A DNA stretch of 44,639 nucleotides from Candidatus Kaiserbacteria bacterium (GTDB lineage: Bacteria > Patescibacteriota > Minisyncoccia > Phycocordibacterales > UBA2100), in contig JAHFMV010000009.1 in assembly GCA_023267655.1 (NCBI GenBank), positions 1 through 44,639 on the forward strand, written 5' to 3'. The notes under the pieces were generated by a model that did not search any database, was not told where the DNA came from, and saw nothing but the letters and a program-made list of their open reading frames with translations. Below, piece by piece: positions 37,544 through 44,639 of the stretch. Position numbers and translations under genes: made by a program. The first letter of the stretch is position 1. The number at the start of each line of letters is the position of its first letter.

Positions 37544-37615
37544 TGCGCGCAGTAGGGATTGCGCCTACGACCTTCCCCTTATCAGAGGGATGCTCTACTA
37601 CTGAGCTATACGCGC
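37544..37615 (-). tRNA. tRNA-Ile (GAT)
   Basis: Full cloverleaf: GCGCGTA TA GCTC-AGTAGTA-GAGC A TCCCT-CTGATAA-GGGGA AGGTC GTAGG-CGCAATC-CCTAC TGCGCGC A. Confidence 0.93.
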
Positions 37616-39982: not shown

Positions 39983-40543
39983 ATGTGGTGCATCTCACGA
40001 GGTACAAGCCGCATCGTTATTGCGATTCCTTCTCGAGGAATCGTAATCAAATGTGCGCGAGTACGGCGTTGGCCTATTAAGCTACTGTTCAAAGATGTGG
40101 TCGTGACGGGCAGAATGATGCTTCCGAGTTCCAGTCGAAAGACCAAGAAGCTGTATTTGGAATTTGTCGGTTCGGCTATCAACCGAGCGTTCATCCAGTT
40201 TTTCCAAGGATTTACGTCAAATTGGAGAGAGTGGGCTTACTATAAACGAGTGAACCCACGACATCGATCTTTCCTGCAACCAACGTACTTCTCATTGCTC
40301 GGCATTCTCAATATCCAAAAGTTTGGAGAACCGGTAGATACAACACGAGGTGAAGAACTGTATCATCGATTCTTCAAGGTTGCGGGTCAGGCACTCATTC
40401 ACGATGGTCATCATTGGACGTTTGCACGGAATTTTCATTTGGCGCCCGATGGACCAAAGATTCTTGATTACGGTAGCGTAGCGACGCAGAAAATCATTGA
40501 CGAGTACGGAGCTGCTCTTTTTGCAAATTCACAAAGCAAATGA
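39983..40543 (+). CDS. Mini-kinase-like hypothetical protein, paralog A
   Basis: SRIVIAIPSRGIVIKCAR (VAIK-like), FLQPTYFSLLGILNIQKFGEPVD, HDGHHWTFARNFHLAPDGPKILDYGSVAT (catalytic-loop/DFG-like). Confidence 0.75.
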   Translation: MWCISRGTSRIVIAIPSRGIVIKCARVRRWPIKLLFKDVVVTGRMMLPSSSRKTKKLYLEFVGSAINRAFIQFFQGFTSNWREWAYYKRVNPRHRSFLQPTYFSLLGILNIQKFGEPVDTTRGEELYHRFFKVAGQALIHDGHHWTFARNFHLAPDGPKILDYGSVATQKIIDEYGAALFANSQSK

Positions 40544-40545
40544 AA

Positions 40546-40805
40546 ACGGCGCGACCACTTTCGGTCGCGCCGTTTCCCTTTTTACAAACACAAAACCACC
40601 CTTTCGGGCGTTTGTGTTAAAAATTCTGCGTCACACAAATTGATTCACACTCTTTTGCCTGCCCCGCCGTGCCCCGTTGGAAGCCCTGCTTTCCGACTGG
40701 GGTGGCCAGCTTTGCTGTGGTACTGGGGTTCCGTCTAAAATTGACCTCAGTCTACATTTAAGGTAGGTTTCCGGCAGTGTATTGATCGAGGAAAGGAACC
40801 CGATA
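40546..40805 (+). repeat. Structured intergenic repeat R2 and conserved 5' leader of mini-kinase B
   Basis: GGCGCGACCactttcGGTCGCGCC and AACACAAAaccaccctttcgggcgtTTGTGTT hairpins; CTGCGTCACACAAATTGATTCACAC; leader conserved with R1. Confidence 0.75.
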
Positions 40806-41366
40806 ATGTGGCATATCTCCAAGGGAAGAAGCCGCACGGTTGTTGCGATCCCTTCCTTGGGAATTGCGATCAAGTGCGCGCGCATTCAGAAAAGACCATT
40901 TGAAGGATTCTGTGCCGATTTGGACTTTGCATATCGCGAAATGTTTCCGAATCCTGATCCTAAAGTCAGAAAGATCTTCTGGGAAGTTGTACGCGCAAGC
41001 GCTCATCGAGCTTTTACTGCTTTCTTCGAGGGCTTCGTAAGCAACTGGAGAGAGCGAGCGTATTACAAACACGCGAACGCATTGCATCGGCCTTTTCTAC
41101 AGCCGACGTATTTCTCGCTCTTTGGTTTATTCAATGTCCAAAAGTTTGGAGAGCCTATTGATGAGGCTCGAAGCGACGAGATGTATCGCCTATTTCACGC
41201 CGTAGCTGGCGCAGCGCTCATTCGCGACGGTCACCATTGGACTTTCGCAAATAACTTTCACCTAGCTCCTGATGGACTTAAGATTCTCGACTACGGCAAC
41301 GTAGCAACGCAGAAAATTATTGAGGAGTATGGCGCTGCTCTTTTTGCAGGTTTGCAAAGCAAATAA
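40806..41366 (+). CDS. Mini-kinase-like hypothetical protein, paralog B
   Basis: SRTVVAIPSLGIAIKCARI, FLQPTYFSLFGLFNVQKFGEPID, RDGHHWTFANNFHLAPDGLKILDYGNVATQKIIEEYGAALFA; strongly similar to 39983-40543. Confidence 0.75.
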   Translation: MWHISKGRSRTVVAIPSLGIAIKCARIQKRPFEGFCADLDFAYREMFPNPDPKVRKIFWEVVRASAHRAFTAFFEGFVSNWRERAYYKHANALHRPFLQPTYFSLFGLFNVQKFGEPIDEARSDEMYRLFHAVAGAALIRDGHHWTFANNFHLAPDGLKILDYGNVATQKIIEEYGAALFAGLQSK

Positions 41367-41613: not shown

Positions 41614-41892
41614 ATGAATACAACCTTGACCATAAAGATGGACAAGAAACTCCGGGACGAGGCTAAAAAGACCGCAAAGGATCTTGGCGTCCCGCTTACG
41701 ACCGTCATAAACGCGATGGCGCGGCAGTTCGTGCGCGACCGACGTCTTGTACTCGAAGCAGAATGCCCGTTCCCGTCTCACTCACCGAATGCGGAGACGC
41801 GTCGCGCAATTCGCGATGTCCAGCTGGGGAAAAATCTTGAGCAATTCGACTCATTTGAAGACTGGAGAAAAGCGATGCGCTCACAGAAGTAG
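41614..41892 (+). CDS. RelB/DinJ family antitoxin
   Basis: MNTTLTIKMDKKLRDEAKKTAKDLGVPLTTVINAMARQFVRDRRLVLE RHH fold motif. Confidence 0.88.
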   Translation: MNTTLTIKMDKKLRDEAKKTAKDLGVPLTTVINAMARQFVRDRRLVLEAECPFPSHSPNAETRRAIRDVQLGKNLEQFDSFEDWRKAMRSQK

Positions 41893-41897
41893 CCTCT

Positions 41898-42167
41898 ATG
41901 CGCGTGCCTGTCCAACGGACGAAATTTCGACGGGATTACAAACGACAAGTTAAGCGAGGAAAGAACCTCGCGAAGTTGGATGCGGTTGTAGAATTACTTC
42001 TTCTCGACGGTGTGCTCGATCTTTCCTACCGTCCGCATAAACTCTCGGGCGAATATGCGGGATTATGGGAATGTCACATCGAATCTGACTGGCTTTTGAT
42101 CTACAGAGCAACGGACACCGAGGTCACTCTCGCGCGGACAGGCACGCATGCTGATTTGTTTGAGTAA
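41898..42167 (+). CDS. YafQ/RelE family mRNA interferase toxin
   Basis: TKFRRDYKRQVKRGKNLAKLDAVVELLLLDGVLDLSYRPHKLSGEYAGLWECHIESDWLLIYRATDTEVTLARTGTHADLF. Confidence 0.9.
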   Translation: MRVPVQRTKFRRDYKRQVKRGKNLAKLDAVVELLLLDGVLDLSYRPHKLSGEYAGLWECHIESDWLLIYRATDTEVTLARTGTHADLFE

Positions 42168-42290
42168 CACAAAACCACCCTTTCGGGCGTTTGTGTTAAA
42201 AATTCTGCGTCTTCCACACTATTGATTCACACTCTTTTGTTCCGTTCAATGCCCTTCGTCTTTCCGAAGTGTCCGACACCATGAGGGGAT
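42164..42290 (+). repeat. Structured intergenic repeat R4
   Basis: AACACAAAACCACCCTTTCGGGCGTTTGTGTTAAAAATTCTGCGTC...ATTGATTCACACTCTTTTGTTCCGTTC. Confidence 0.7.
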
Positions 42291-42365
42291 GAGTGTCATT
42301 TCCCTTGAGTACTCGATCGAGATACTCAAATCGACTAACAGCAATCCCGAAGGATTGGTTGTATA

Positions 42366-42405
42366 GAATGAATCCACGAGCAGGTTCCCCTACCCGTGCC
42401 TTGTT
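42366..42405 (-). rRNA. rrs: 16S rRNA 3'-terminal exon (helix 45 and tail)
   Basis: Minus strand AACAAGGCACGGGTAGGGGAACCTGCTCGTGGATTCATTC; helix 45 with GGAA loop intact, anti-SD absent. Confidence 0.8.
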
Positions 42406-42563
42406 CATGTTCTTCACGAATTTCTCCGTGCATGGACTATGCCTTCATCCAATTTCGTTTTTGCGATAATTGGAGCCAACATATTATGGCAGTGTCTCTC
42501 CGGCTTCAGCCGGCACTTCTGCCATCTTCATCCCGCTTGCGCAGGATTCCAGTCTCTACAGGT

Positions 42564-42589
42564 TCTAAGAGAATCACTTACTTATCCGA
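42564..42589. repeat. 26-nt inverted repeat, distal arm (pairs with 43183-43208)
   Basis: TCTAAGAGAATCACTTACTTATCCGA versus reverse complement TCTAGGAGAATCACTTACTCATCCGA (24/26). Confidence 0.85.
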
Positions 42590-43232
42590 GTTTATATTGC
42601 ATTGATGGGATGATCTGCCAATCGAACAGGCCGCGAAATATATTTCGCGACTCTTCGGCGTAGATTCCAATGCGATGATAGCCATTATTTTTCTCAACGC
42701 GCGCACGAATTCCGTATAAATCCGTAAACTCCCGCGCTATGAGCTTGTTTTCTTCCTCTGTGAAAGATTGAGTATTGAGGTTGTATCCTCCAATTACACC
42801 CTTTCGCAGTTTTGCATTTCCATCATCCATGAACCAAACCGCAAGAATCATCGATTCTTGAAGATATTCCCGGATTTTGGATGGAATTACCTTTTTACCA
42901 TTCTTATAAAATTCTTTATACAAAGAAGTTAAATAAGGATGGCTAATAGTTCTCGTTGTGTATGAGCGCGTCGGTTCATACCAACGTGGCGGCGTGAGCA
43001 CGAATGGTTTCAAATGCTCAAACTGCCAATCAACGTATTCTTTTTGCTTTTCTGAGCGCGTAATCTTTAACGTGTAATTGGTTTTAGACCAGTTGGGATG
43101 CAAACACGCATCGCCAAGAAGACTTCCAATTACGATCAAACGCTGTTGTTCTGTGAACGACACTGTCTTTAGCTGCCGTATTTCGGATGAGTAAGTGATT
43201 CTCCTAGATTCCCTCGGCGTTGCCGTCGCCAT
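42582..43232 (-). CDS. LAGLIDADG homing endonuclease (alternative GTG start at 43163)
   Basis: TEQQRLIVIGSLLGDACLHPNWSKTNYTLKITRSEKQKEYVDWQFEHLKPF and LAVWFMDDGNAK, both LAGLIDADG motifs. Confidence 0.92.
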   Translation of the reverse strand: MATATPRESRRITYSSEIRQLKTVSFTEQQRLIVIGSLLGDACLHPNWSKTNYTLKITRSEKQKEYVDWQFEHLKPFVLTPPRWYEPTRSYTTRTISHPYLTSLYKEFYKNGKKVIPSKIREYLQESMILAVWFMDDGNAKLRKGVIGGYNLNTQSFTEEENKLIAREFTDLYGIRARVEKNNGYHRIGIYAEESRNIFRGLFDWQIIPSMQYKLG

Positions 43233-43329
43233 GTTGTGAATTTTATCACGTCATGACGAGACGGTTTCTCCGATTTTAGTTGGATTTTTATGCTGTATTA
43301 CTACAACATGTCGCTATGATTTTGTCAAA

Positions 43330-43418
43330 ACGACTTAGTCTTTGTCATTGAGTTTGCCTTGATACATTACAAGAATGTGCTTCGGGCACTCCCAACTTCC
43401 CTGACTTGACGGGCGGTA
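43330..43418 (-). rRNA. rrs: 16S rRNA middle exon (about E. coli 1398-1498, helix 44)
   Basis: ACCGCCCGTCAAGTCAGGGAAGTTGGGAGTGCCCGAAGCACATTC...ATGACAAAGACTAAGTCGT. Confidence 0.85.
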
Positions 43419-43493
43419 TTCTGTTCCATCCAGAATTACTTCTGAATGTTCAAACGCCACGGGACAAGCGGTTTTCCCGCATCCTCGCGGCTT

Positions 43494-43524
43494 CCAAAAA
43501 TTTTATTGTGTACTGGATAGTAGG
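43494..43524. repeat. Long inverted repeat, distal arm (pairs with 43899-43926)
   Basis: CAAAAATTTTATTGTGTACTGGATAGTAGG versus reverse complement CAAAAATAATTGTGTGCTGGATAGTAGG. Confidence 0.8.
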
Positions 43525-43556
43525 GGCGAGTTGGTTCTCGCCCAATGTTTTCTTCG

Positions 43557-43877
43557 TCAACGGTATTTGTCTTCCCTGTCACGCATTGCTTGTAGCGCGG
43601 CACCAGGTGGTTCAGATTTGAACCTTCGATTCGATCTAGCGACCTCGTGATTTTCGTCGAGGTTGCAGCAGATGCACCCCTCTTCGAATGGGCAGCTTGC
43701 GCCACACCACTTACGAGGCTTGCCATCGAACTTCCGCTCAAAGGCGTACTTGTTGCCGTCGTTGAGTTGCTGGCATCTCGATATGTGATCGACTGCCCAT
43801 TGCTCTCCGCGACGATACGCTTCGGCCAGAGGCTGATTCATTGCGAGCAACATCGGTATGTTCACAACTTGTGCCAT
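43557..43877 (-). CDS. Intron-encoded Cys-rich protein of unknown function
   Basis: MAQVVNIPMLLAMNQPLAEAYRRGEQWAVDHISRCQQLNDGNKYAFERKFDGKPRKWCGASCPFEEGCICCNLDENHEVARS...; GGAG upstream of ATG 43877. Confidence 0.55.
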   Translation of the reverse strand: MAQVVNIPMLLAMNQPLAEAYRRGEQWAVDHISRCQQLNDGNKYAFERKFDGKPRKWCGASCPFEEGCICCNLDENHEVARSNRRFKSEPPGAALQAMRDREDKYR

Positions 43878-44317
43878 CGTTCTTCTCCATGATTGCTTCC
43901 TACTATCCAGCACACAATTATTTTTGAATTTGCTCCTTCCCAATTTCGATAAAGAAATTGGTACTACGAACTCTGCTGACTTCTCGTATTGTGTTTGAGC
44001 TGTCGCTCATACCTCAAGGCAATCTTAACAGACTGCATACCTCGAGGACTCTACGAGATCTCTCACGGTAACCGATACACTGTGTATATCTATCTCGATG
44101 TCACTACACGTTAGACAGTTTTTTCATAGAAGCTTCTTCCTGTACTCGAGGAATCGCCTCCGTCTAACGCCACAAACTGACATTCAAGCTAGATACTGCT
44201 ACTTTCACCCTTCACATGCAGAGTCGCCCCTGCATACTGTGATTTCGCTTCACGACACTATGAACTGTCGCGGCTGGACTTTCACCAACTAGCGTACTCG
44301 ATCGCATGACGACCCGA

Positions 44318-44639
44318 GTACAAGGCTTGAGAACGTATTCACCGCGGTGTGGCTGACCCGCGATTACTAGTGATTCCAGCTTCATGAGGTCGGGTTGCAG
44401 ACCTCAATCCGAACTGACGCCGCTTTTAAAGATTTGCTCCGGGTTACCCCATTGCGCCTCGTTGTAACGGCGATTGTAGCGCGTGTGCAGCCCAAGATAT
44501 CAGAGGGACATGCTGACTTGGCGTCATCCCCACCTTCCTCCCCCGTGAGGGGGCAGTCTCGCCTGACAAATATAACAGGCAACGAGGGTTGCGTTCGTTA
44601 CCCCACTGAAGGGAACGATTCAAACCACGAACTGACGAC
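44318..44639 (-). rRNA. rrs: 16S rRNA, 3'-major/minor domain exon (continues beyond the window)
   Basis: Minus strand GTCGTCAGTTCGTG...GGGGATGACGCCAAGTCAGCATG...GGGCTGCACACGCGCTACAAT...GGAATCACTAGTAATCGCGGGTCAGC...GAATACGTTCTCAAGCCTTGTAC. Confidence 0.95.

Follow-up and report, generated by a model that had tools for sequence, protein, structure and literature searches.

The 16S rRNA gene that runs off the end of this contig raises the question of whether a bacterial lineage has genuinely lost the anti-Shine–Dalgarno (anti-SD) sequence CCUCC from its ribosome, and, if so, what has taken its place. The window, meaning the whole stretch of DNA analysed, is the complete contig C2 (44,639 bases) of a 1.09 Mb genome in 27 contigs. 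The sole 16S found on searching the assembly is split between two contigs, the 5' part lying on C19 and the 3' part on the minus strand of C2, with an exact 120-bp overlap between them. Both contigs terminate within the 16S, and the 23S gene is absent from the assembly. The initial annotation had proposed that the 16S 3' end keeps helix 45 and lacks CCUCC, a description confirmed both by re-reading the sequence and by comparison with relatives.

Exon junctions were placed by blastn against intron-free relatives. The 3' major domain exon occupies positions 44316..44639 of the minus strand (Rfam RF00177, 262.5 bits), its boundary being taken from such relatives and its first 120 nt being identical to the end of C19. 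It is followed on the same strand by a group II intron at 43418..44315, which matches RF01998 above the gathering threshold (50.9 bits) and RF02003 below it (34.2 bits) and is missing from relatives such as L038. The next exon, 43330..43417 (minus strand), reads ACCGCCCGTCA..., passes through the helix 44 region and ends in AAGTCGT; in relatives that lack the introns it directly adjoins the exons on either side. The second intron of the window, at 42406..43329 (minus strand, boundary likewise from intron-free relatives), harbours a LAGLIDADG homing endonuclease gene (42582-43232; PF03161, E=1.4e-39) and is probably of group I type, its Rfam group I match being just 18.2 bits and below threshold. 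The exons at 44639-44316, 43417-43330 and from 42405 onward match three directly abutting stretches in the intron-free relatives L038 and L064, and the sequence from 42405 onward is therefore an authentic 16S 3' exon. At least three further insertions are present in the C19 part. The number of insertions, about five of group I and group II type within a single gene (C19 1-3814; window 42406-44315), is unusually high for one bacterial 16S, and ORFs sit in the loops of these insertions. A near-palindromic pair, TGTGCTGGATAGTAGG ... CCTACTATCCAGTACACA, flanks an ORF module in each of two different introns (window 43926-43500 and C19 650-285, both minus strand), as though one ORF-bearing element had entered both.

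The last exon comprises AACAAGG and a 10-bp helix 45 with a GGAA tetraloop (42375..42405, minus strand, delimited by aligned relatives and pairing), the helix reading CACGGGUAGG-GGAA-CCUGCUCGUG and being followed by GAUUCAUUCUAUAC. Over 42405-42361 of the minus strand we read AACAAGG-CACGGGTAGG-GGAA-CCTGCTCGTG-GATTCATTCTATAC, letter for letter as originally quoted. Helix 45 of this 16S is real: its own sequence is paired at 10 of 10 positions, all cells are paired across 17 distinct relatives, and both sides have changed in six of the ten pairs, amounting to 28 doubly changed cells. The resulting covariation of 0.556 (shuffles, 0.142; slid controls, no more than 0.071) bears out the compensatory changes that had been noticed together with the tetraloop. 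KsgA, which methylates the GGAA loop of helix 45, is present in this genome and scores over the cut-off in 26 of 31 relatives. After helix 45 the 16S terminates in GGAUUCAUUCUAUA and not in GGAUCACCUCCUUA; in the tail alignment of relatives, the place of GGAUCACCUCCUUA is taken by a replacement 3' tail, GGATTCATTCTATA, at 42362..42375 (minus strand), which has no anti-SD.

Three explanations had been offered at the outset for this tail, namely genuine loss of the anti-SD, a further insertion and a rearrangement, and the relatives discriminate between them. A third intron lying directly after GAU1532, with a spliced 3' exon restoring CACCUCC, would be in keeping with a gene already interrupted so often, by two introns within the window and by three or more insertions on C19. 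However, relatives whose 3' ends are contiguous and intron-free bear the same tail, and conservation halts after 13 nt, where a mature 16S would be expected to finish, with no common intron sequence beyond. Furthermore, CACCTCC, originally reported as missing downstream, occurs nowhere on the minus strand of the entire window; its three matches all fall within 13-18 kb of the plus strand, with 2.9 expected by chance. A leader–trailer processing stem is also found just ~113 nt past the tail: the trailer arm TTGAACGGAACAAAAGA (42233..42249, minus strand) is a 17-nt exact complement of leader sequence on C19 that precedes the 16S start by 114 nt, and ~1e-5 matches of at least 16 nt would be expected. 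This pair represents a probable RNase III processing stem, and 3' maturation seems to follow the course of a normal pre-16S. A third intron is thus extremely improbable. We consider it just as far-fetched that this genome alone acquired its tail through misassembly or rearrangement. The breaks of C2 and C19 within the 16S, their 120-bp overlap and the unassembled 23S would allow it, yet 35 further genomes of the genus have the tail, the single-contig genome G027 among them, as does a public record entitled Candidatus Paceibacterota bacterium, so that dozens of independent genomes agree, relatives without a 3'-end intron included. A second intact 16S, which could also have undone the reading of genuine loss, was not found in the assembly.

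Genuine loss is further supported by its phylogenetic extent, which the initial annotation, working from the sequence alone, could not show, any more than the conservation of the tail. A helix 45 pattern search of 117 relatives returned 90 with a match, a few of the matches not being 16S, and readable tails were obtained for 36 sequences of the same genus, 5 of the same family and 27 of other families, i.e. 68 loci of the order. None of the 68, relatives without a 3'-end intron included, has CCUCC directly after helix 45, although a few have CCTCC further downstream, within a variable hairpin. Genus, family and order therefore share the loss at this junction. In the survey of the class, CCUCC is missing from 34 of 34 sequences of the order among those listed (a second, foreign-looking copy in G228 excluded), whereas outside the order, among 114 listed, CCUCC is present in 57, CUCC in 6 and neither in 51, the tails of other orders ranging from intact to eroded. 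The phylum survey shows CCUCC in almost all matched tails from beyond the class, except for G806 (CACTTCC), G989 (TATCTCC), an extra copy in G950 and two non-16S matches. The second copy of G950 has a tail identical to that of this genus and is probably contamination. Conversely, when 397 genomes from the order were searched for helix 45 followed by CACCTCC, seven had a match; the four that were read carry a foreign-looking 16S type (GTCGTCACAAGG...; GUCGUCACAAGG...), and a fifth, G228, contains an order-type 16S as well. These CACCTCC-bearing copies are likely contamination, with proof incomplete for all seven. More generally, foreign-type 16S copies suggest contaminated metagenome bins at G228:C6:265-309, G510, G523, G563, G595, G611, G732 and G950:C1:5406.

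Since CCUCC is near-ubiquitous outside the class and intact to eroded in the sister orders, its loss arose within Paceibacteria, those orders showing intermediate stages, and is both genuine and old. We consider it highly probable that a functional 16S genuinely ends in this tail and that the anti-SD was lost in the ancestor of the order, within class Paceibacteria. The order, whose members are tiny, uncultured Paceibacterota, comprises as sampled about 90 families and 179 genera; a sequence often viewed as near-universal in bacteria is gone across this large group. A literature search covering papers outside subscription found no earlier report of an order-wide loss or of a conserved replacement tail.

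The replacement tail is itself conserved. GGAWUCAUUC is common to all 36 same-genus sequences read, one of them having U for C; columns 5-10 are otherwise invariant, column 4 is A or T, and as far as column 10 the information content is ~2 bits per column. Columns 12-13 still hold 1.7-1.8 bits, whereas columns 19-21 fall below 0.25 bits. At the level of the order the tail approximates GGAWUAWUUCAA, ~13 nt conserved as strongly as helix 45. The mature tail of E. coli 16S is 14 nt counted from GGA, and because conservation stops at a matching length, the mature 3' end would lie at about column 13-14. Conservation over ~13 nt that ceases near the normal mature length indicates that the tail is under purifying selection, and suggests that selection acts on the 16S 3' end for something besides its pairing with mRNA. 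It is unlikely that the tail is a neutral, functionless residue of a decayed anti-SD: the varied eroded tails in other orders of the class would fit such decay, but columns 5-10 are near-invariant in the 36 genus members against the <0.25 bits at columns 19-21, and all 34 sequences of the order among those listed in the class survey have a TTC or ATCC core. Even less probable is an altered anti-SD with a matching new SD, in which AUUC would pair with GAAU. AUUC is indeed conserved, and an initial tally showed AGAAT to be over-represented ahead of start codons. However, duplex energies between the own tail and upstream regions are not above background (p=0.086 for leading and 0.27 for internal genes), GAAT is not enriched in genes without a -10 box (8 versus 15.3), and the enriched hexamers turned out to be -10 boxes, not all of which contain GAAT. 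Pairing of the canonical tail with upstream regions is not above background either. The duplex-energy test is weak for CCUCC-bearing sets too, so motif counts weigh more.

As to what the conserved tail does, we hold, tentatively and a little short of an even chance, that the replacement sequence, which is UUCAUUC for the genus and UAWUUCAA for the order, serves a conserved purpose besides pairing with SD motifs. The likeliest candidates for such a role are 30S assembly, processing of the 3' end and docking on the platform. It might, for instance, dock on the 30S platform, perhaps with a C-terminally extended bS21-like protein, guide 3'-end maturation without Era, or favour leaderless mRNAs. 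If true, a whole bacterial order would have repurposed its 16S tail. By eye, no common stretch of complementarity between the tail and the 16S 5' leader was seen in 21 loci. L207 7721-8086 (plus strand) encodes a 121-aa bS21-like protein whose C terminus bears a long extension rich in Ala, Ser and Thr (TIGR00030 below cut-off).

Loss of CCUCC is accompanied in other genomes of the order by SD motifs at background level, this genome retaining a small residue. Genes were called by a simple ORF rule in 804 kb of this genome and in 1.6 Mb from eighteen other genomes, and start codons were likewise assigned by a simple rule. SD 5-mers precede 0.9% of genes (1/113) in the pooled set of the order, compared with a background of 1.2%, and 2 of 50 genes in G027, near background; in CCUCC-bearing orders the corresponding values are 13-14% versus 2-3%, a modest but continued use of such motifs. 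In this genome the leading genes show a small SD-like excess, 14/308 (4.5%) versus 1.6%, and the genes concerned encode mostly short proteins that look accessory by eye. G442, a member of the class (L166-L169) with the eroded tail GGAATACATCATTTT, has 13% SD-like genes versus 1.5% in the control.

What does stand out upstream of starts is a promoter element. TAnnnT lies at -12 from the ATG in 52 of 308 transcription-unit-leading genes, compared with ~7 at other offsets and with 5 of 664 in the internal ATG control. T at -15 and G at -14 accompany 54% and 63% of the matches, respectively, giving an extended -10 box, TGnTAnnnT, which ends 6 nt before the ATG. The same signal is found in G027 and in five other genomes of the order. 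With the box at -12 and transcription starting 7 nt after it, the predicted transcript begins at the A of AUG; transcription-unit-leading genes are thus predicted to be often leaderless, and many proteins are probably translated from mRNAs that begin directly at the start codon. Initiation in this lineage would be SD-independent. Internal genes frequently show 4-nt overlaps or short spacers, and those within operons probably depend on translational coupling and short spacers. YchF, reported to promote the translation of leaderless mRNA (PMC12641178), is present, and an S1-like protein is found in 31 of 31 relatives.

The -10 signature is also present in the CCUCC-bearing family f62 (28% versus 5%), so leaderless use is not specific to CCUCC loss and is better seen as permissive than as its direct consequence. 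Leaderless use may have come first in the class, relaxing selection on CCUCC. A second constraint could have been imposed by Era, which binds GAUCA together with CCUCC (PMC10582724), and its loss would have removed that constraint. No recognisable Era was found here, with no match over the cut-off in 60 relatives. Era also falls below the cut-off in class members that retain CCUCC, in agreement with PMC12641178; its loss was accordingly rejected as the specific cause of anti-SD loss and is permissive at most. With their intact and intermediate tails, the sister orders make it possible to trace the loss stepwise, in parallel with the use of SD motifs and of leaderless promoters and with assembly factors. 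In practical terms, SD-based gene finders, CCUCC-based 16S annotation and the design of heterologous expression would be misled in this group.

Ca. Campbellbacteria and Ca. Wolfebacteria are candidate phyla that we take to lie within Paceibacteria. One genome of each has previously been tabulated as lacking CCUCC, with little upstream pairing with the 16S, as here (PMC10783764). Those cases are single genomes, whereas here the loss is fixed across the sampled order and comes with a conserved replacement tail and a leaderless promoter signature. Category iii of the same study, which combines an altered anti-SD with an altered SD, is unlikely to apply to the present case, in which own-tail pairing stays at background (p=0.086, 0.27). 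Natural loss of the anti-SD is known elsewhere: Flavobacteria, insect symbionts and haemotropic mycoplasmas have likewise lost CCUCC and SD-like sequences (PMC3522020; PMC6107228). These groups belong to other phyla, and the passages on them do not name CPR bacteria; moreover, Flavobacteria reportedly use A-rich leaders, whereas the signal found here is a -10 box spaced for leaderless transcripts. Bacteroidia also initiate independently of SD, as we infer for this order, but they keep the anti-SD, hidden by bS21, bS18 and bS6 (PMC9976891; PMC8710568), while here the sequence itself is gone. The mammalian mitochondrial small-subunit rRNA resembles the present 16S in keeping helix 45 without an anti-SD, although in that organelle the Era homologue ERAL1 is retained (PMC10582724) and Era was not found here.

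The region downstream of the 16S has several features of its own. A hairpin-like repeat, AACACAAACGCCCGAAAGGGTGGTTTTGTGTT, occurs three times with similar flanks (42210-42165, 41455-41405 and 40635-40590, minus strand), and part of the processing-stem sequence is repeated at ~41500. Between the repeats lie two tandem paralogous proteins of 186 and 194 aa (39983-40543 and 40782-41366, plus strand), for which Pfam gave no match. Just downstream of the 16S, and convergent with it, is a toxin–antitoxin pair (41614-42167, plus strand), the toxin being of the YafQ type (PF15738, E=4.9e-30) and the antitoxin weakly RelB-like. Finally, a tRNA gene, apparently tRNA-Ile (anticodon GAT), follows the 16S by ~4.7 kb on the same strand (37544-37615, minus strand).
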